From the NCBI RefSeq assembly GCF_002300555.2, contig NZ_NTHN02000039.1, positions 1-50,530 on the forward strand: a stretch of 50,530 nt of DNA, read 5' to 3'. Made by a program: the position numbers and the translations under genes. Shown piece after piece: positions 3,574-14,277 of this stretch. Every line of letters starts with the position of its first letter. Within the stretch, counting starts at the first letter, position 1. The stretch comes from Alloyangia mangrovi. Lineage in GTDB: Bacteria; Pseudomonadota; Alphaproteobacteria; Rhodobacterales; Rhodobacteraceae. A model generated the notes under the pieces. That model was not told the origin of the DNA. It saw nothing but the letters and a program-made list of their open reading frames with translations, and did not search any database.

Positions 3574-4578
3574 TTACTTGGCGGTGGCCTCTTCGTAGGC
3601 GGCCAGCAGCGCCTTGCCCGCCTCACCGGCCATGGCGACATAGGCTTCCGAGGCCGGGCCCCAGGTCAGTTCGCGCAGCTCGGCGCGCTCTTCGGGAGAA
3701 GCGACGCGCACGTTGGTGCCGGAGTCCTTGATCACCTGCAGCGCCTCTTCGACGGCGGCGGCCTTGTGGGCGGTCAGCTCGGGGATGACCTCGGCGAAGG
3801 CACCTTTGATCACGTTCTGGTACTCGGCCGGCAGGCTCTCCCAGAACATCGGGTTGAAGAGCACCACGTCTTCCATCGCACCGTGATCAGAGATCACCAC
3901 GTTCTCCTGCACCTCGTAGAACTTCATGTTCTTGATGGTGTCGAGCGGGTTCTCCTCGCCGTCCACGACGCCGGTTTGCAGCGAGGTGTAGAGCTCGCCG
4001 AAGGGCAGCGCGATGGCCGAGGCACCCAGAGCGTTGAACTGCTCGATGAGGATCGAGCTGTCCATCACGCGGAACTTCTGGTCGGCGAAGGCGGCGAGAT
4101 TGTCCAGCGGCTTGTTCGAGGTGAACTGCTTCTTGCCGTTCGGCCAGAGCATCAGTGCGACCATTCCCTTGTCGGCGAAGGTCGCCAGCAACGCCTGGCC
4201 GAAGGGACCGTCGCGCAGCGCCTGCGCCTCGGCGGCGTCCTCAGGGATCAGGTAGGGGATGTCGAGGATCGAGACCGCCGGGTTGAAGCCGCCGAGGAAT
4301 GCGGCAGGGGCGACGGTGGCCTCGATGGTGCCGAGCTGCACGCCCTCGTTCATCTGGCGCTGGTTACCCAGCTGGCCCTGCGGGAAGATCTGCAGCTCGA
4401 CCGCGCCCTCGGTGCGCTCCTTGACCAGCGCGGCCACCTTCTCGAGGTGCACGTGGCGGCTCTGCGCGGTGCTTTCGAGGTGGCCGATCTTGGCCACGAA
4501 CTCCTGCGCCGAGGCGGCTCCGGATGCGAAGGAAAGCGCAAGCGCAAGCGCGGCGCCGGCAAAGCGGGTCATGACCAT
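3574..4578 (-). CDS. TRAP transporter substrate-binding protein (DctP family)
   Basis: This is the periplasmic solute receptor of the TRAP system, 334 residues. A signal peptide covers about residues 1-24 (cleavage after ASA, before QEF). The family's dicarboxylate-binding core is seen in segments such as LPFGELYTSLQTGVVDGEENP, which holds the signature around the substrate-contacting helix. The ATG at 4578 is preceded by GGAG with 8-base spacing; an in-frame ATG at 4572 is less well placed. It is the first gene of the dctPQM operon. The bound substrate is unknown; a C4-dicarboxylate, keto acid or sugar acid is possible. Confidence 0.95.
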   Translation of the reverse strand: MVMTRFAGAALALALSFASGAASAQEFVAKIGHLESTAQSRHVHLEKVAALVKERTEGAVELQIFPQGQLGNQRQMNEGVQLGTIEATVAPAAFLGGFNPAVSILDIPYLIPEDAAEAQALRDGPFGQALLATFADKGMVALMLWPNGKKQFTSNKPLDNLAAFADQKFRVMDSSILIEQFNALGASAIALPFGELYTSLQTGVVDGEENPLDTIKNMKFYEVQENVVISDHGAMEDVVLFNPMFWESLPAEYQNVIKGAFAEVIPELTAHKAAAVEEALQVIKDSGTNVRVASPEERAELRELTWGPASEAYVAMAGEAGKALLAAYEEATAK

Positions 4579-4608
4579 GCGGGGTACTCCAGAATTTTCA
4601 ACGCCACT

Positions 4609-4637
4609 AGCTATCGGCGGCGCAGGGCGCAAGTCAA
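4609..4637 (-). promoter_or_regulatory. Possible sigma-70 promoter of dctPQM
   Basis: On the minus strand TTGACT (4637-4632) is followed after 17 bases by ATAGCT (4614-4609). The -35 is good and the -10 weak. An inverted repeat, ACCGCC (4643-4648) with GGCGGT (4658-4663), sits just upstream of the -35 and could be a regulator site. Confidence 0.4.
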
Positions 4638-4766
4638 AGCGAACCGCCTATACGGAAGGCGGTCCCGATGCATAGGCCCGTTTCTTGGGCGCCCCGCCCC
4701 GCTTGCAGCGTCGGCGTGAGGCGCGGCTCAGAGATCGGCCCGCGGCGACCCGCGGGATCCGGGCAG

Positions 4767-4799
4767 AAAAAAGCGGCCCGCTCATGTGCAACGGGCCGC
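4767..4799 (-). terminator. Intrinsic terminator of the DUF6455 operon
   Basis: Read on the minus strand, an 8-bp perfect stem (4799-4792 with 4780-4773) is followed directly by six T (4772-4767). It lies 39 bases after the last DUF6455 stop codon, in the right orientation to end that operon. Confidence 0.8.
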
Positions 4800-4837
4800 A
4801 GTGAGATGCACTCCCCTCTCAAAAAAGTGCACCTGTC

Positions 4838-5092
4838 TCATCTCGCGCGCCTGAGCCGGGTCAACGGTGCCGAGATCCGGCATCCCGGCGGCGGCGCCTT
4901 GGCCAAGTCGCACTGGCTTGCCAGCCACTTTTCGCATTGTTCCACCAGCGCGCAGCTGCGGCAGGCGGCCACCATCACCTGATACTCCTCGGGCCGGAGC
5001 CGCCCCTTGTCGATCATCTCGCCAAGATTGAGCCCCATCACCCGCGCGACGCTGCGCGCCAGCCAGAAGTGCCGTGCCTGATCGCCCAGCAT
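4838..5092 (-). CDS. DUF6455 family protein, third gene of the triad
   Basis: An 84-residue cysteine-rich protein of unknown function. A helical N-terminal half (VARVMGLNLGEMIDKGRLRPEEY) precedes C44-x2-C47-x5-C53 followed by EKWLA, with a further C71 in PPGCRI. The same pattern occurs in the two genes just upstream, so the three are tandem paralogues. A longer overlapping frame (to 5099) is a shadow. It starts 3 bases after the preceding stop and is followed by a strong terminator. The four conserved cysteines suggest metal or Fe-S binding; that is inference. Confidence 0.85.
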   Translation of the reverse strand: MLGDQARHFWLARSVARVMGLNLGEMIDKGRLRPEEYQVMVAACRSCALVEQCEKWLASQCDLAKAPPPGCRISAPLTRLRRAR

Positions 5093-5095
5093 GAC

Positions 5096-5419
5096 TCATA
5101 CCTCGTGCCGAAGTTCATCCCGCAACATCTTGAAGGGGCGTCGGTTCACGCAGTCCTCGGGACAGGTGCGCGGGCCCTCCGCTTCGGCCTCGATCCCGGC
5201 CATGTGGTCGAGCCACCGCGCGCATCCCTCGGCCCAGAGACAGACCCGGCAGCGCCCGACCATCCCGGCCCAGTCGCGCTGCGGCAGCACGCCGCGGCGC
5301 TGCGCCTCGACGAGATCGACCCCGGTGGCCCGGGCCATGCGCTGCACGCGCCAGTAATGGGTGCGCTCGTCTCCCAGCGGAAACGGCCTCGGACCGCGCA
5401 GCATGTTGGCCGAGATCAT
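5096..5419 (-). CDS. DUF6455 family protein, second gene of the triad
   Basis: A 107-residue paralogue of its neighbours, with an N-terminal extension of about 20 residues. It has the shared core: RMARATGVDLVEAQRRGVL, then C57-x2-C60-x5-C66 followed by ARWL, then C86 and C90 in CPEDCVNR. It is separated from the gene before it by 4 bases and from the gene after it by 3, so all three must be one transcript. An internal ATG at residue 6 is an alternative start. The function is unknown; no transmembrane segment or signal peptide is seen, so it is probably cytoplasmic. Confidence 0.85.
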   Translation of the reverse strand: MISANMLRGPRPFPLGDERTHYWRVQRMARATGVDLVEAQRRGVLPQRDWAGMVGRCRVCLWAEGCARWLDHMAGIEAEAEGPRTCPEDCVNRRPFKMLRDELRHEV

Positions 5420-5423
5420 CGCC

Positions 5424-5681
5424 CTAGCCTCCGGTCAGGTCGCGGAAGAGATCGGCGTTGCGGCAGTAGCTCGGCGTGGCCGCCATGATGCCGTCGCGCG
5501 TGGCGAGCCAATGCTCGCATTCGCCGGGCTTGTGGCAGCCGGTGCAGGCCAGCACCGCATCCTCGAGACCGGCAAAGCTCAGCCGGCCGCGCAGCATCTG
5601 TTCTTCGAGATCGACGCCGAGCGCTCCGGCCATCTGGTCGACGAGACCGGCGTGGCGCTTGAAATCCTTTGCTCCGGGCAT
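5424..5681 (-). CDS. DUF6455 family protein, first gene of the triad
   Basis: An 85-residue protein and the first gene of the operon. The ATG at 5681 has a strong ribosome binding site (AAGGGAG, 7 bases upstream). It has the family core MAGALGVDLEEQMLRGRL, then C46-x2-C49-x5-C55 followed by EHWLA, and C73 in PSYCRNAD. The Cx2Cx5C plus late-Cys arrangement is kept in all three copies although the rest has diverged, which argues that the cysteines act together. A perfect Fnr-type box lies 75-88 bases upstream, so expression is expected to respond to oxygen. Confidence 0.87.
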   Translation of the reverse strand: MPGAKDFKRHAGLVDQMAGALGVDLEEQMLRGRLSFAGLEDAVLACTGCHKPGECEHWLATRDGIMAATPSYCRNADLFRDLTGG

Positions 5682-5727
5682 GGCAGTTCTCCCTTGTTGG
5701 CGGCCTTTTCGGCCTTGCCTCGGGATG

Positions 5728-5769
5728 AGCCTAGCACGGCAGGGCGGGGTCGCCCTTGATGCACATCAA
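5728..5769 (-). promoter_or_regulatory. FNR/FnrL-dependent promoter of the DUF6455 operon
   Basis: TTGAT-GCAC-ATCAA at 5756-5769 matches the FNR consensus (TTGAT-N4-ATCAA) at every fixed position. On the minus strand a TAGGCT at 5733-5728 stands where a -10 would fall if the box were centred at -41.5, the classical class II FNR activator position. That predicts a transcript start near 5721 and a leader of about 39 bases. The box begins two bases past the stop of the upstream M48 gene, so it can only serve the triad. Binding is inferred. Confidence 0.78.
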
Positions 5770-5771
5770 CG

Positions 5772-6497
5772 TCAGACGCCGCCGCCGGCCCGATATGCCT
5801 CTGCCGTGCGCCGTACGGTTTCGATTCTTTCGCTGTTCGGCGGATGTGTCCCGAGGAAGCGATTCCCCGGATCGGGCAGGCGCTCGAAGAAGCGCGCGCC
5901 GCGAATCGGATCGAAGCCGCTGCGCAGCGTGATCACCGTGCCCAACTCGTCCGCCTCCAGCTCGTAATTCTTGGTGAAGGTCCGTGCCCCCACCGACGCG
6001 CCGAATTCCTCGGCCGAGCGCACCGAAGCCTCGTCGGCGCCGGTCATCGCCGCGATGCCCGAGAAGATGATCGCGCCGATGGCGGCATCTTCCTGCACCC
6101 GGTCGAGGTGGCCGAGGATGTGGTGCGAGGCCTCGTGCCCCATGACAAAGGCCAGCTCGTCGGCATTCTGCGCCTCGCGGATCAGCGCAAGGTTGAAGGC
6201 CAGCACCGGCCGGCCCTGACTGTCGCGGGTCTGGAAGGCGTTCGGGGTCTCGTCGGGGCGGTCATCGACCACGATTAGGAAGTCGCAATTGGCCCCGTCG
6301 CGGGTGAAGGCGTGGCACTGGCTCTCAGCCACCGGCTCGACCCGGTGCACCACCTCGGTGAACTGCTGCGCGGCACGGGATTCGGCGCCCGAGAAGGGAT
6401 CGTTGCGGCCCGAGGGCACCGAAGAAATCGGCGCCACGGTACAGGCCGAAACGAGGGCCGAGGCGAAGACAAGGAAAACGGGCAGAAGTCGGCGCAT
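5772..6497 (-). CDS. M48 family metalloprotease, lipoprotein
   Basis: A 241-residue membrane-anchored zinc protease. The N-terminus MRRLLPVFLVFASALVSAC is a lipoprotein signal with Cys19 as the lipidated residue. The zinc motif HEASH (His121, Glu122, His125) is followed by the downstream glutamate in NYELEADELG (about residues 178-186), as in M48 proteases such as YggG/LoiP and BepA. No TPR domain follows, so it is closer to the short LoiP-like group. An ATG at 6524 would add nine residues; 6497 gives the standard lipoprotein n-region. A likely role is outer-membrane protein quality control. Confidence 0.9.
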   Translation of the reverse strand: MRRLLPVFLVFASALVSACTVAPISSVPSGRNDPFSGAESRAAQQFTEVVHRVEPVAESQCHAFTRDGANCDFLIVVDDRPDETPNAFQTRDSQGRPVLAFNLALIREAQNADELAFVMGHEASHHILGHLDRVQEDAAIGAIIFSGIAAMTGADEASVRSAEEFGASVGARTFTKNYELEADELGTVITLRSGFDPIRGARFFERLPDPGNRFLGTHPPNSERIETVRRTAEAYRAGGGV

Positions 6498-6676
6498 GCG
6501 GCGGGTCGCTCCGGTTCGGGTCATGGATCCAAGGATAGGCGGCGCCGCGTCCCGGCGCCAGTGCAGCGCGCATTCAGTGGCATCTTTGTGCTTTTTGCGT
6601 GTGCCCAGCTTCCCCGCCGCGCGTTGGTACATTTTGTGGATTGCGCGCCGCGGGGCGGCAGGTCTAGGCTAGGATC

Positions 6677-6922
6677 ATGTTCAGCATCGAGCACGAATTC
6701 GACGCCACCGTGGTGACCCTCGTCGACGAGGGAGAGCCGCATTTGCAGGAAGACGTGATCGTCTCGAGCTTCGAGGAATGCGTCACGGTCGAGCAATACG
6801 ACCCGCGCACCGACAGGGTGAACAAGATCACGCTCTCGATGACCCAGATGCGCGATCTCGCCGCCGCGATCAGCTTGCCCGAGGGCGTCTACACACGCCA
6901 AGAACCCGACGAGGAGGAGTGA
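6677..6922 (+). CDS. Conserved hypothetical protein, 81 residues
   Basis: A small acidic protein (MFSIEHEFDATVVTLVDEGE...) with AGGA just upstream of the ATG. I recognise no domain. The pattern of short beta-like segments with a C-terminal acidic tail (EPDEEE) suggests a small soluble fold. It is read away from the M48 gene and converges on the DUF167 gene with no base between the two stop codons; both stops lie in one palindrome. Confidence 0.75.
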   Translation: MFSIEHEFDATVVTLVDEGEPHLQEDVIVSSFEECVTVEQYDPRTDRVNKITLSMTQMRDLAAAISLPEGVYTRQEPDEEE

Positions 6923-9340: not shown

Positions 9341-9505
9341 GACACTCTCCCTCGAATCCTCGCGTCGCCCGGTTATCGCGCGTGCGGCCCCTGCCCCGCA
9401 AGCCGGGTGCGTCCATTAACCGCCCATTAGCCAAGGGGGCGCAGGATGGACCGGCCCGGACGCCCCTTCGCGGCCCCGGCGCACAGCTCTATCGAGGAAG
9501 GCCCG

Positions 9506-10240
9506 ATGACCGACAGCGACATGACCGACAGCGACCGCAACACGCCCTTTCCGCCACGCCCCACCGCCACCAGACCCCTGCTCGGAATGACGATCCTTGC
9601 GGTGGAAGACAGCCGCTACGCCTGCGATGCGCTGCGCCTGATGGCCCTGCGCAGCGGCGCAAGGATCCGCCGGGCGGACTGCCTGCAGGCGGCGCGCCGG
9701 CACCTGTCGCTCTACCGGCCGACCGTCGCGGTGATCGACCTTGGCTTGCCGGACGGATCGGGCGCCGGGCTGATCGCCGAACTGGTGGCGCGCAGCCCGC
9801 GGCTGCCGGTGATCCTCGGCATCAGCGGCGATCCCTTTGCCGAGAACATGCTGCGCGCCGCCGGGGCGGACGGCTTCCTGGAAAAGCCGCTGCGCAGCCT
9901 GCTCGAGTTTCAGAACGCGATCATCGCCGCCCTGCCCGACAGCCGCAAACCAGGCGGCATCCGACTGGTCTCGGACGACCCGATCCATCCCGATCCGCTG
10001 GCCTACCAGGACGACATCGCCCATGCCGCCGCGCTATTGCAGGAGGCTGGAGAGCCCGGACTCTCCGACTATCTGGCGCAGTTTCTCGCGGGGCTGGCGC
10101 GCAGCGCCGGGGACAACGCGCTCGAACGCGCGGCGCGGGCGCTCGCCGCGGCGCGGGCCGAGCGGCGCCCGACGGCGCAGGCGCTCACCCAGCTCTCCGC
10201 ACTGCTGCACCAGCGTCTGGCGACCCGCATGGCTATCTGA
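9506..10240 (+). CDS. Response regulator receiver protein without a DNA-binding domain
   Basis: A 244-residue protein with a REC domain at about residues 28-140: acidic pair Glu34/Asp35 (AVEDS), phosphoacceptor Asp78 (VIDLGLPDG), Ser107 and Lys127 (EKPL). The C-terminal hundred residues are helical and Ala/Arg-rich, with no helix-turn-helix, GGDEF or methylesterase signature. This region loosely resembles an HPt-like bundle, but I see no clear phospho-histidine site. The ATG at 9506 has GAGGAAGG 4 bases upstream; the 9446 start gives no such site. No kinase gene is near. A hemerythrin gene follows 74 bases later. Confidence 0.85.
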   Translation: MTDSDMTDSDRNTPFPPRPTATRPLLGMTILAVEDSRYACDALRLMALRSGARIRRADCLQAARRHLSLYRPTVAVIDLGLPDGSGAGLIAELVARSPRLPVILGISGDPFAENMLRAAGADGFLEKPLRSLLEFQNAIIAALPDSRKPGGIRLVSDDPIHPDPLAYQDDIAHAAALLQEAGEPGLSDYLAQFLAGLARSAGDNALERAARALAAARAERRPTAQALTQLSALLHQRLATRMAI

Positions 10241-10314
10241 GCCGGATTCCCGGAACCCCCCCCGCCTCTCTCCGCGTTGCCTGCGCAATCGCCATCTGCA
10301 CGCGGAGAGCTGCC

Positions 10315-10791
10315 ATGACCTCGATCTACGACGCCATCAAGAAGGACCACGAGACCCATCGCGCCCTACTCGAGCGCATCGACGCAACCAGCGGCGACAG
10401 CCCAGAACGCCAGGAGGCCTGGGACGCCTTCTATCGTGACATCAAGTCCCACTCCGCCGCCGAGGAGGAGGAGTTCTATTCCGAGCTGATGAAGCACACC
10501 TGGGGCCAGGACGCAGCCCGCCATTCGGTGCATGAGCACGCCGAGATGGATGAGATTCTCGAGGAATTAAACGAGATGGACATGTCCTCGCCCGGCTGGC
10601 TGACCCGTTTCCGCACGCTCAAGCATGACTACGAGCACCACATGGACGAGGAAGAGGAAGAGGTCTTCGCCCGCGCCCGTGAGGTCGTCGGCGAAGAGGA
10701 CAACGACGCCTATGGAAAACGCTTCCTGGACCGCAAGGAAAAGGAGTTAGGGCTGATCGAGGAGAAGAAGGAAGATCATCTCGAGGACTGA
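10315..10791 (+). CDS. Hemerythrin domain-containing protein
   Basis: A 158-residue soluble protein with a hemerythrin/HHE four-helix bundle. Likely iron ligands are His12 (KKDHETH), His46 and Glu50 (HSAAEEEE), His75 (HEHAEMDE), and His104/His108 with an acidic residue in KHDYEHHMDEEEEE. GGAG precedes the ATG. The frame stays open upstream but that part is shadow sequence. The C-terminus is highly charged (KEKELGLIEEKKED). Such proteins bind O2 or NO, or protect against iron and oxidative stress; which applies here is unknown. Confidence 0.93.
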   Translation: MTSIYDAIKKDHETHRALLERIDATSGDSPERQEAWDAFYRDIKSHSAAEEEEFYSELMKHTWGQDAARHSVHEHAEMDEILEELNEMDMSSPGWLTRFRTLKHDYEHHMDEEEEEVFARAREVVGEEDNDAYGKRFLDRKEKELGLIEEKKEDHLED

Positions 10792-10850: not shown

Positions 10851-11029
10851 GCCCGCCCCGATGCGGCCCGCGCCATCTCTCTACCGGGGACCGCAACGTC
10901 GAGGCAATTTCCCGCGTTCCCCAGCGTCGAATCGTTCCATTTTTGTTCGCTCCCTGCCATAGAGCGCAAATCCCCCGCGCGCGCGAAAGCCGCGTGACAT
11001 TTGATCGATCCGGGGGCTATATTTCGACG

Positions 11030-11662
11030 ATGACACAAAGCGCCGCGCAACATCTATCCGAGTTCCTGGGGAACGACCGGTTCGCCACCGTGATGGCCGA
11101 TCCGCCGTGGCGGTTCACCAACCGCACCGGCAAGGTCGCCCCCGAACACAAGCGCCTGGCCCGCTATCCCACGATGACGCTCGAGGAAATCTGCGCGCTG
11201 CCGGTGGCCGACCACCTGCAGGACACGGCGCATTGCTATCTCTGGGTGCCGAACGCACTGCTGCCCGAGGGGCTGCAGGTGCTCCGCTCCTGGGGGTTCG
11301 AGTACAAGTCGAACATCGTCTGGCACAAGATTCGCAAGGACGGCGGCTCGGACGGGCGCGGCGTGGGCTTCTACTTCCGCAACGTGACCGAGCTGCTGCT
11401 CTTCGGAACCCGCGGCAAGAGCGCCCGCACCGAAGACGCGGGCCGTCGCCAGGTCAACATGATCCAGACCCGCAAACGCGAGCATTCGCGCAAGCCGGAC
11501 GAGCAATACGCGCTGATCGAGAGCTGCTCGAAGGGGCCCTACCTCGAAATGTTCGGACGCGGCGTGCGCGACGGCTGGACGGTCTGGGGCAACCAGGCCG
11601 ACGCCGACTACAAGCCAACCTGGAAGACCTACAGCTACAATTCGAGCGTCGCGGCCGAGTAA
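11030..11662 (+). CDS. MT-A70 family N6-adenine DNA methyltransferase
   Basis: A 210-residue methyltransferase. The catalytic motif DPPW is at residues 24-27 (VMADPPWRF), followed by YPTMTLEEICALPV, YLWVPNALLPEGLQVLRSWGF and KSNIVWHKI, all typical of bacterial MT-A70 enzymes. The C-terminal SKGPYLEMFGRGVRDGWTVWGN is the family end motif. The start at 11030 is chosen over the longer frame because homology begins just after it. The convergent neighbour is a BglII/BstYI-type nuclease, so this is most likely the protective modification enzyme of a type II system, with a GATC-core site as the probable target. Confidence 0.92.
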   Translation: MTQSAAQHLSEFLGNDRFATVMADPPWRFTNRTGKVAPEHKRLARYPTMTLEEICALPVADHLQDTAHCYLWVPNALLPEGLQVLRSWGFEYKSNIVWHKIRKDGGSDGRGVGFYFRNVTELLLFGTRGKSARTEDAGRRQVNMIQTRKREHSRKPDEQYALIESCSKGPYLEMFGRGVRDGWTVWGNQADADYKPTWKTYSYNSSVAAE

Positions 11663-11758: not shown

Positions 11759-12490
11759 TCAGCCCAGCAGGATCGCGTCCGGCAGGCCGATCAGCACCAG
11801 CGGGCAGGGATTTCCGACGCCGCGGCGCACACGTTCCTCGAGCTTCGACCAATGCGTGGTGGCGGTGCCGAACTTGTCGGCGACGAACTTGCGGGCGAAG
11901 GCTTCGGGGAAAGACACGCCCCTGGCCACCTGCATCTCGACCGCCGAGCGCTGCTTGGCGGTGCGATCGCCGATGCCGAGCCGCTGCAGGTCTTCTTCCG
12001 ATTGCAGCCCGTTCGCCTCGAGCCAGCCGCGGATGCGCGGCAGCATGCGGTCCTGCAGCGTCGAGCCGCGGGTCACCACGATCCCCAGCGAGATCGCAGA
12101 CTGGGCGTGCAGGCGCTGGAAATTCTCGAGGTCGCGGTCGAAGAACGGATCCTTGTTGTTCCACTCGATCTCGAGCGCGAGCCGCCCTGCCCCGGCGCGG
12201 CGCACGTGGTCGATCTCGTGGGAAATCGCCTCGCGCTCGACGCCGTCGACGATGGTCTGGACAAGGAAGTTGTGCTTTTCCCAGCCGCGGGCGCTGAGCG
12301 CGCGCCGCAACCGCTGGGTCTGCCCCGACTCGCCGCCGCCGCCGGCGATCAGCTCAGAGAGTTCGATGGTGAACTCCGAAAGCGTCTCGACCAACTCGGC
12401 CGTTTCCTCGGGGAAGTCGACGCTCAGAATCGCCGCGGCATGGTTGCGCACTTCGACATCGAAGCCGCGGGTCCTGAGCGTCTCGAGCAT
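11759..12490 (-). CDS. BglII/BstYI family type II restriction endonuclease
   Basis: A 243-residue nuclease of the BglII/BstYI group (BglII cuts AGATCT, BstYI cuts RGATCY). The catalytic set is seen as Asp94 (HEIDHV) and Glu107-Ile-Glu109 in LALEIEWNNKDPFFDRDL, an ExE variant of the PD-(D/E)xK core as in BamHI. A preceding helical part (residues 20-60) may mediate dimerisation. The ATG at 12490 has AGGAG 8 bases upstream, within the last codons of aspS; a GTG at 12499 would overlap the aspS stop but lacks spacing. It therefore follows aspS in one transcript. The exact site is not provable by reading. Confidence 0.88.
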   Translation of the reverse strand: MLETLRTRGFDVEVRNHAAAILSVDFPEETAELVETLSEFTIELSELIAGGGGESGQTQRLRRALSARGWEKHNFLVQTIVDGVEREAISHEIDHVRRAGAGRLALEIEWNNKDPFFDRDLENFQRLHAQSAISLGIVVTRGSTLQDRMLPRIRGWLEANGLQSEEDLQRLGIGDRTAKQRSAVEMQVARGVSFPEAFARKFVADKFGTATTHWSKLEERVRRGVGNPCPLVLIGLPDAILLG

Positions 12491-12495
12491 CAAGG

Positions 12496-14277
12496 TCACT
12501 CCTGCGGGATGACCCGCAGGGAGAGCTCCATCAGCTGGTCCGGGCCCGGCACGGAGGGAGCCTGCATCATCAGGTCCTCGGCGCGCTGGTTCATCGGGAA
12601 CATGATGACCTCGCGGATATTCTGTTCATCCGCCAGCAGCATCACGATCCGGTCGATGCCCGCCGCGCAGCCGCCGTGCGGCGGGGCGCCGTAGTGGAAG
12701 GCCTGGTAGAGCGCGCCGAAGCGGTTCTTGACCTCCTCCTCGCCGTAGCCCGCGATCTCGAAGGCCTTGAGCATGATCTCCGGCTTGTGGTTCCGGATCG
12801 CGCCCGAGACAAGCTCGTAGCCGTTGCACGCGAGGTCGTACTGGAAGCCGCGCACATCCATCGGATCGCCCAGCAGCGCGTCCATGCCGCCCTGCGGCAT
12901 CGAGAAGGGGTTGTGCTCGAAGTCGATCTCGCCGGACTCTGCGTCCTTCTCGTAGATCGGGAAGTCGACGATCCAGGCAAAGGCGAAGCGATCGGTCTCG
13001 GTCAGGCCGAGCTCGGCACCGATCACGTCGCGCGCCTTGCCTGCCACGCGCTCGAAGCTCGAGGGCTTACCACCAAGGAAGAAGGCCGCGTCGCCGACAC
13101 CCAGGCCAAGCTGCTGGCGGATCGCCTCGGTGCGCTCGGGGCCGATGTTCTTGGCCAGCGGGCCGGCGGCCTCGATGCCTTCGCCCTGATCACGCCAGAA
13201 GATGTAGCCCATGCCCGGCAGGCCTTCCTTCTGGGCGAAGGCGTTCATCCGGTCGCAGAACTTGCGCGAGCCGCCGGTGGGCGCGGGGATGGCGCGGACC
13301 TCGGTGCCTTCCTGCTCAAGCAGCTTGGCGAAGATCGCGAAGCCGGAGCCGCGGAAGTGCTCGGAGCAGTCCTGCATCTTGATCGGGTTGCGCAGGTCGG
13401 GCTTGTCGGTGCCGTACCACTTGGCCGCGTCACGATAGGAGATCTGCGGCCATTCACCGGGCGCGTCGACCTTACGGCCACCGCCGAACTCCTCGAAGAT
13501 GCCCGCGATCACCGGCGAGATGGTGTCGAAGACGTCCTGCTGCTCGACGAAGCTCATCTCCATGTCGAGCTGGTAGAAGTCGGTCGGCGAGCGGTCGGCG
13601 CGCGGATCCTCGTCGCGGAAGCAGGGCGCGATCTGGAAGTACTTGTCGTAGCCCGACACCATGATCAGCTGCTTGAACTGCTGCGGAGCCTGCGGCAGCG
13701 CGTAGAACTTGCCCGGGTGCAGGCGCGACGGCACGAGGAAGTCGCGCGCGCCCTCGGGCGAGGACGCGGTGATGATCGGCGTCTGGAACTCGCGGAAGCC
13801 GTTGCCCCACATGCGGCGGCGGATCGAGGCGACCACATCCGAGCGCAGGGTCATGTTGCGCTGCATGCTCTCGCGGCGCAGGTCGAGGTAGCGATACCGC
13901 AGGCGGGTCTCTTCCGGGTATTCCTGTTCGCCGAAGACCATCAGCGGCAGCTCGTTGGCGGCGCCCAGCACCTCGATGTCGCGGACGAAGACTTCGACTT
14001 CACCGGTCGGCAGCTTGGCGTTCACCAGCTCGGGGTCGCGGGCCTTCACCTCGCCGTCGATGCGGATGCACCACTCGGAGCGCACCTTCTCGACCGCCGC
14101 GAAGGCGGCGCTGTCGGGGTCGCACAGGACTTGCGTGATGCCGTAATGGTCGCGCAGGTCGATAAAGAGAATGCCGCCGTGATCGCGGATGCGGTTCACC
14201 CAGCCGGAGAGACGGACGGTCTCGCCGACGTTGGCCTTGGTCAGATCTGCGCAGGTATGGCTGCGATAGGCATGCAT
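12496..14277 (-). CDS. aspS: Aspartyl-tRNA synthetase
   Basis: A class II synthetase of 593 residues, charging tRNA-Asp (and in many alphaproteobacteria also tRNA-Asn, as a non-discriminating enzyme). An N-terminal OB-fold anticodon-binding domain covers about residues 1-105. Motif 2, [21 protein letters not shown], is at 220-240, a bacterial-type insertion domain lies in the middle, and motif 3, [13 protein letters not shown], is at 536-548. A promoter-like sequence lies 40-68 bases upstream. The last codons carry the ribosome binding site of the restriction gene. Confidence 0.97.

Follow-up and report, generated by a model that had tools for sequence, protein, structure and literature searches.

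What three small cysteine-rich genes lying side by side behind a perfect FNR/FnrL box might do for their host is the question raised by positions 4838-5769 of the window, the 50,530-nt stretch of Alloyangia mangrovi DNA analysed here (Table 1). The original prediction spoke of three adjacent paralogues of 85, 107 and 84 residues spaced 3-4 bases apart, and this is borne out both by the open reading frames, with gaps of 4 bases between A and B and 3 between B and C, and by the Pfam search, in which all three proteins exceed the curated PF20056 cut-off of 23.7 bits (A 107, B 77.5 and C 67.8 bits) and hence belong to DUF6455, a family to which the Pfam description assigns no function. They are the sole DUF6455 matches found in the host genome, have no match in NCBIfam and share 30-32% pairwise identity. 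Each carries, as had also been claimed, a C-x2-C-x5-C motif and a late cysteine, arranged in paralogue A as C46-x2-C49-x5-C55-x17-C73, and, judged by eye, none of the three has a signal peptide, catalytic motif or membrane segment. The terminator announced for the end of the triad is likewise found, as a terminator-like hairpin at 4799-4773. Among the best 80 of 130 matches, the closest titled relatives of paralogue A are those of Salipiger mangrovisoli (92%) and Alloyangia pacifica (86-87%), and nine comparisons of A, B and C with these two species give dN/dS values of 0.09-0.25 (dN 0.04-0.15, dS 0.41-0.79), indicative of purifying selection; all 107 codons of paralogue B can be aligned in Salipiger and Alloyangia.

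Table 1. Features of the DUF6455 locus, in window coordinates.
Feature	Position	Strand	Remarks
Terminator-like hairpin (intrinsic)	4773..4799	-	10 pairs, loop of 7, T run; 3' of paralogue C
DUF6455 paralogue C (last), 84 aa	4838..5092	-	Above PF20056 cut-off; AF2 pLDDT 96.6
DUF6455 paralogue B (middle), 107 aa	5096..5419	-	Above PF20056 cut-off
DUF6455 paralogue A (first), 85 aa	5424..5681	-	Above PF20056 cut-off; AF2 pLDDT 91.0
-10-like hexamer TAGGCT	5728..5733	-	22 bases past the box, class II spacing
Perfect FNR/FnrL box TTGATGTGCATCAA	5756..5769	-	TTGAT-N4-ATCAA
M48 metallopeptidase gene	5772..6632	-	Lipoprotein-like N-terminus (by eye); upstream neighbour, outside the FNR-controlled unit

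The box preceding paralogue A is the one perfect TTGAT-N4-ATCAA of the window, where 0.02 would be expected, and the 5.53-Mb host genome contains 12 such boxes against none for a reversed control pattern. If the hexamer TAGGCT, which agrees with TATAAT at three of six positions, occupies -12 to -7, the box is centred at -41.5 and thus in the class II position, just as had been proposed from the perfect box and the placement of the hexamer, and on sequence grounds the triad can be counted with the FNR/FnrL regulon by virtue of a box at functional distance from a -10-like element. A consensus scan of 4500-6000 found no full sigma-70 promoter, which is what is expected of a class II activated promoter that does without a -35 element.

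That this arrangement extends well beyond the window is evident from two collections of DUF6455 loci. The main set joins the window to 80 loci from 149 sampled genomes of its family, and its 150 genes form 84 clusters (41 with one gene, 23 with two, 17 with three and 3 with four); it represents 80 of about 85 clusters among the matches listed and leans towards the better-scoring members, leaving out weaker matches and five clusters (in G111, G017, G104, G022 and G028). The second set holds 172 DUF6455 genes at 80 loci from titled records, which are the best 80 of 130 confirmed matches obtained with paralogue A patterns. Of the 84 main-set clusters, 82 are preceded within 200 bp by a box matching at least 8 of 10 positions and 66 by one matching at least 9 of 10, whereas the rate of boxes of at least 8/10 is 6-7% in the controls (291 of 4200 windows drawn at random from these loci, and 71 of the 1114 regions that precede other ORFs). 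All 80 clusters of the second set have the box as well, and in the union of the two sets, which have 12 clusters in common, it precedes 150 of 152 distinct clusters at 8/10 or better within 200 bp, so that the check for a box at orthologous loci across relatives comes out positive; the two boxless clusters (L091 and L092) are both from a single genome, G040. Furthermore, within 150 bp the box is found before 81 of 84 first genes and 4 of 66 inner genes in the main set, and before 80 of 80 first genes and 9 of 92 inner genes in the second, which argues that it marks the cluster as a unit. Alignment of 82 clusters by their boxes brings out a -10 pattern with class II spacing, in which 61% have A at position -11 and 68% have T at -7. 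As far as sequence can tell, the conserved box is real, far beyond chance and not a local peculiarity.

The box might still be associated with the triad merely passively, belonging in truth to a neighbouring gene such as that of the M48 peptidase, which precedes 64 of the 84 clusters in the same orientation. This is made hardly credible by the narrow distance at which the box stands before DUF6455, by the 20 clusters that have no M48 gene upstream, at most two of which lack the box, and by a control in DUF6455-negative genomes, 15 of 60 of which were queried and 11 of which had a strong M48 orthologue: a box of at least 9/10 is found within 1500 bp downstream of M48 in none of these 11, as against the 66 of 84 DUF6455 clusters that have one within 200 bp. 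Boxes of 8/10 occur within 1500 bp of M48 in five of the 11, two of them within 200 bp. The absence of boxes of at least 9/10 beside M48 in these genomes indicates that the box goes with DUF6455, and the M48 adjacency is mainly a matter of conserved gene order. Two Thioclava plasmids have an M48 and a DUF2254 gene ahead of two DUF6455 genes, and on a Pseudosulfitobacter plasmid the relative has no M48 gene within 5 kb.

Some further neighbours deserve mention. Divergent from the M48 gene, an 81-residue protein without a Pfam match is encoded at window positions 6677-6922 (+), and the Thioclava plasmids, too, have hypothetical proteins of like size encoded divergently from M48. The frame at 9382-10791 (+), some 4.6 kb away from the triad, encodes a C-terminal hemerythrin HHE domain that is possibly oxygen- or NO-related, with no perfect FNR box near it, and a response regulator ORF is present at 9446-10240. 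Farther on, an MT-A70 methyltransferase (10943-11662, +) faces a BglII-type restriction endonuclease (11759-12499, -), both above their Pfam cut-offs, and the two look like a type II restriction-modification pair.

DUF6455 occurs in 89 of the 149 genomes of the family sample (80 of the 132 more complete ones), and the 60 same-family genomes in which no match was found imply that it is dispensable. It matched 14 of 289 genomes in a class-wide sample and 12 of 249 in a phylum-wide one, all 12 within the same class; a class-sample match in G340 looked unconvincing and was dropped. Members outside the family are often longer owing to N-terminal additions, and a box of at least 9/10 precedes the gene at 7 of 14 such loci, one of the other seven having 8/10. 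At one locus outside the family the gene lies near genes for a CBS-BON protein and a P-type ATPase, and at another (L247, 6571-7717) it adjoins a gene of the VIT family of iron/manganese transporters, each of the two having its own FNR-type box, a possible iron link outside the family. At L241 (5061-6932) the DUF6455 match falls, by eye, within a glycosyltransferase-like frame and is apparently a natural fusion. Inside the family sample, ccoN is present in 88 of 89 DUF6455-positive and 49 of 60 negative genomes (p=2e-4) and nosZ in 39 of 89 and 7 of 60 respectively (p=2.5e-5), both by a statistic that ignores phylogeny, the nosZ threshold of E < 1e-50 having been chosen because the model's own cut-off was passed in only 3 of 149 genomes; 50 of the 89 positive genomes are without a full nosZ match.

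In the literature searched, which covers few subscription journals, the family is named in one line of a table, where an Azospirillum brasilense DUF6455 gene is raised by ethylene (log2 1.67, adjusted p 0.0487; PMC11819568), and otherwise not at all. The word DUF6455 is likewise absent from five papers on FnrL or FixK (PMC2908626, PMC4263372, PMC5398030, PMC4634722 and PMC4999443); older papers would use locus names.

The regulator most readily at hand is FnrL. The host encodes an FnrL-like protein (G000:C11:53124-53369) that matches HTH_Crp_2, lies about 3 kb from ccoN and carries CNECPIRHRAVC near its N-terminus, and thus possesses the N-terminal cysteine ligands of an FnrL. Pfam annotation of the neighbours covered nine perfect host boxes besides that of the window (L215 and L221 being left out), and four of these adjoin the universal stress protein gene and ccoN (cbb3), a COX1-family gene, the gene for cytochrome bd subunit I and that for cytochrome c peroxidase. 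The others adjoin M20 peptidase, luciferase-like monooxygenase, alpha/beta hydrolase, PmbA/TldD protein and resolvase genes, neighbours without an obvious oxygen link. In R. capsulatus the FnrL targets obtained by ChIP-seq and RNA-seq have boxes of the form TTGA[CT]-N4-[AG]TCAA, and several are annotated as hypothetical proteins (PMC4634722); the window box resembles variants reported in the same source for direct targets in R. capsulatus and R. sphaeroides, which places it close to the FnrL/FNR regulon of Rhodobacter and its relatives. Among the direct targets given there as hypothetical proteins are RCC00435 (+9.19), RCC00901 (+6.87), RCC00747, RCC00424 and RCC02321, any of which could be a DUF6455 protein.

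It could also be imagined that NO-responsive regulators of the Dnr/NnrR type are the chief readers of the box, in which case the genes would serve nitric oxide defence and not a response to oxygen. Such regulators are possible in denitrifying relatives, given that FnrL and Dnr share overlapping sites in D. shibae (PMC5398030), and the enrichment of DUF6455 with nosZ is in agreement with this. However, while the host does encode FnrL, it yields only short, weak hits for nosZ (the best at E 9.8e-5, where genomes with NosZ reach 1e-54 or better) and for nirK a best hit that is partial, at 50.1 bits against a cut-off of 296.3; judged by these two genes, an NO-led denitrification regulon is unlikely in this organism. 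In addition, the R. capsulatus FnrL targets identified by ChIP-seq carry the same box variants (PMC4634722), and we regard a mainly NO-dependent reading as decidedly improbable. Control of the triad by a regulator of the FNR type, by contrast, appears almost certain from its upstream region.

If the box joins the three genes, the question is whether they are interchangeable. A tree of the 150 main-set proteins sorts by gene position, needing 34 changes as against 81.0 in label shuffles, and places the window's three genes in three different groups: one of 33 rows with paralogue A (27 first and 6 single genes, support 95/88), one of 27 rows with B (17 middle, 5 first, 3 last and 2 single genes, support 98/84) and one of 32 rows with C (28 last and 4 middle genes, support 97/82), the tree being built from few columns, with many forks unsettled and the groups impure. 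At the level of this tree, first, middle and last genes are three old paralogue groups in a recurrent order. The original prediction had the paralogues keep their cysteines and little else, which proves too modest, for in the relatives each position has a conserved signature of its own; this favours specialised roles, and A, B and C are probably specialised. They are possibly subunits of a heteromer, a notion to which the conserved order of A, B and C and the separate paralogue groups lend plausibility.

These observations also bear on the idea that, as small Fe-S proteins, they carry electrons or donate clusters for anaerobic or micro-oxic respiration or for haem enzymes. The promoter is of the type that serves oxidase and peroxidase genes, and the co-occurrence with ccoN and nosZ would fit, but a Pfam scan of 30 proteins encoded recurrently beside DUF6455 clusters turned up no respiratory enzyme, and three divergent paralogues kept together agree better with specialised partners than with a single carrier, so that we consider such a function distinctly unlikely.

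A clue to what the proteins contain lies in the cysteines, the conservation of which the original prediction had made a point to be checked. All four are kept in 150 of 150 main-set genes, and the one gene of 172 in the second set that lacks the full complement (L211) is apparently cut by the end of a contig. In the alignment the columns of C46, C55 and C73 are invariant and that of C49 is conserved in 92%, and in the 12 genes where C49 seems lost the cysteine has moved two residues on, giving C-x4-C-x3-C, while 136 genes have C-x2-C-x5-C and 2 another spacing between the second and third cysteine. A compensating shift of this kind is as expected of a ligand under selection, and by analogy it is likely that the four cysteines hold a metal centre. 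Thus, while regulation of the FNR type, one part of the earlier claim of an oxygen-controlled metal or Fe-S protein, is strongly supported by the sequence evidence, the metal part leans on the four cysteines and on the analogy of their motif. The AF2 models of A and C have the same five helices in a confidently predicted, all-helical fold, to which Foldseek found no match in the PDB; the matches listed by Foldseek and VIA likewise include no Fe-S protein or Wbl protein.

The motif is shared with FNR, the cluster ligands of which are C20, C23, C29 and C122 (PMC4214427), that is, a C-x2-C-x5-C and a distant cysteine as in DUF6455. It is likewise found in WhiB1 (C9, C37, C40 and C46; PMC6282962), a four-helix protein whose cluster is required for sigma factor binding, reacts with NO and is described as O2-stable and NO-sensitive (PMC5741622). 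Indeed, like DUF6455 proteins, the Wbl proteins are helical, have about 80-140 residues and several paralogues per genome (PMC6282962, PMC5741622), and have four invariant cysteines including a C-x2-C-x5-C. In Wbl proteins, however, the lone cysteine precedes the CxxC, whereas the lone conserved cysteine of DUF6455 follows it, and a cysteine 8-40 residues before the first of the motif is present in just 16 of 150 DUF6455 genes. The G[VI]WGG motif that follows the last cysteine in Wbl proteins is moreover found in 0 of 150 and 0 of 172 genes of the two sets, and we conclude that DUF6455 proteins are akin to WhiB-like proteins in kind and are not members of that family.

Identity with FeoC (PF09012) was considered and rejected. 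FeoC is an O2-sensitive [4Fe-4S] protein and, judging from five FeoC loci, resembles DUF6455 in being small with clustered cysteines, but paralogue C alone gave a match, at 16.6 bits (18.8 in the genome search) against a cut-off of 21, and the profile similarity reached an hhalign probability of 0.6%, the FeoC profile consisting of five sequences only.

What the cysteines hold need not be iron. The proteins could be FnrL-induced structural zinc proteins, in which four cysteines bind Zn and which act as stable, non-sensing adaptors; zinc sites use CxxC too, and a small, helical protein in which four cysteines are invariant would suit such a role. Against this, there is a single CxxC pair, the C-x2-C-x5-C is the spacing of the [4Fe-4S] ligands of FNR and WhiB1, and a promoter of this type links expression to scarcity of oxygen, a condition in which labile clusters are stable, all of which leaves the zinc reading somewhat unlikely in our judgement. 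For an Fe-S centre, argued from the likeness of motifs, the chances appear about even.

The reading that we tentatively favour, at a little under an even chance for the whole, is that the triad encodes FnrL-induced cytosolic four-cysteine proteins, probably [4Fe-4S] proteins, that act as sensors or adaptors; given an Fe-S centre, the sensor or adaptor role itself would be somewhat more likely than not. Low oxygen would lead FnrL to switch on A-B-C as one operon, and the four cysteines would bind a metal centre, for which a [4Fe-4S] cluster is the likeliest candidate, being favoured by the correspondence of the C-x2-C-x5-C and distant cysteine to the ligand pattern of FNR and by the WhiB-like pattern, in which the lone cysteine comes first. 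The small size and the lack, by eye, of a signal peptide, catalytic motif or membrane segment lead us to propose action by partner binding; the partners may be transcription, RNA or respiratory proteins, with binding set by the state of the cluster. Oxygen or nitric oxide would then both halt synthesis and inactivate the protein already made. A bolder version, in which DUF6455 is an alphaproteobacterial counterpart of the WhiB-like proteins that evolved separately, its members being small helical [4Fe-4S] sensors or adaptors made under FnrL, and a heteromeric A/B/C switch retunes transcription or RNA metabolism with O2 or NO, is in our view unlikely.

To Pfam's description of DUF6455 the present analysis adds regulation of the FNR type, the triad of A, B and C, the shifted cysteine and a predicted fold. 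With an FNR-type box before the first gene in nearly all clusters examined, a family without an assigned function gains a firm physiological address, and DUF6455 looks like a part of the way in which these bacteria cope with low oxygen. Culturable roseobacters offer a direct way to test its role, among them Ruegeria lacuscaerulensis, which has three of the genes (L212), and Ruegeria pomeroyi, which has two (L210). If labile Fe-S clusters are indeed bound, DUF6455 would be a family of adaptors that respond to oxygen or NO downstream of FnrL, and should the proteins prove to be counterparts of the WhiB-like proteins, a second layer of Fe-S sensing would lie beneath FnrL.
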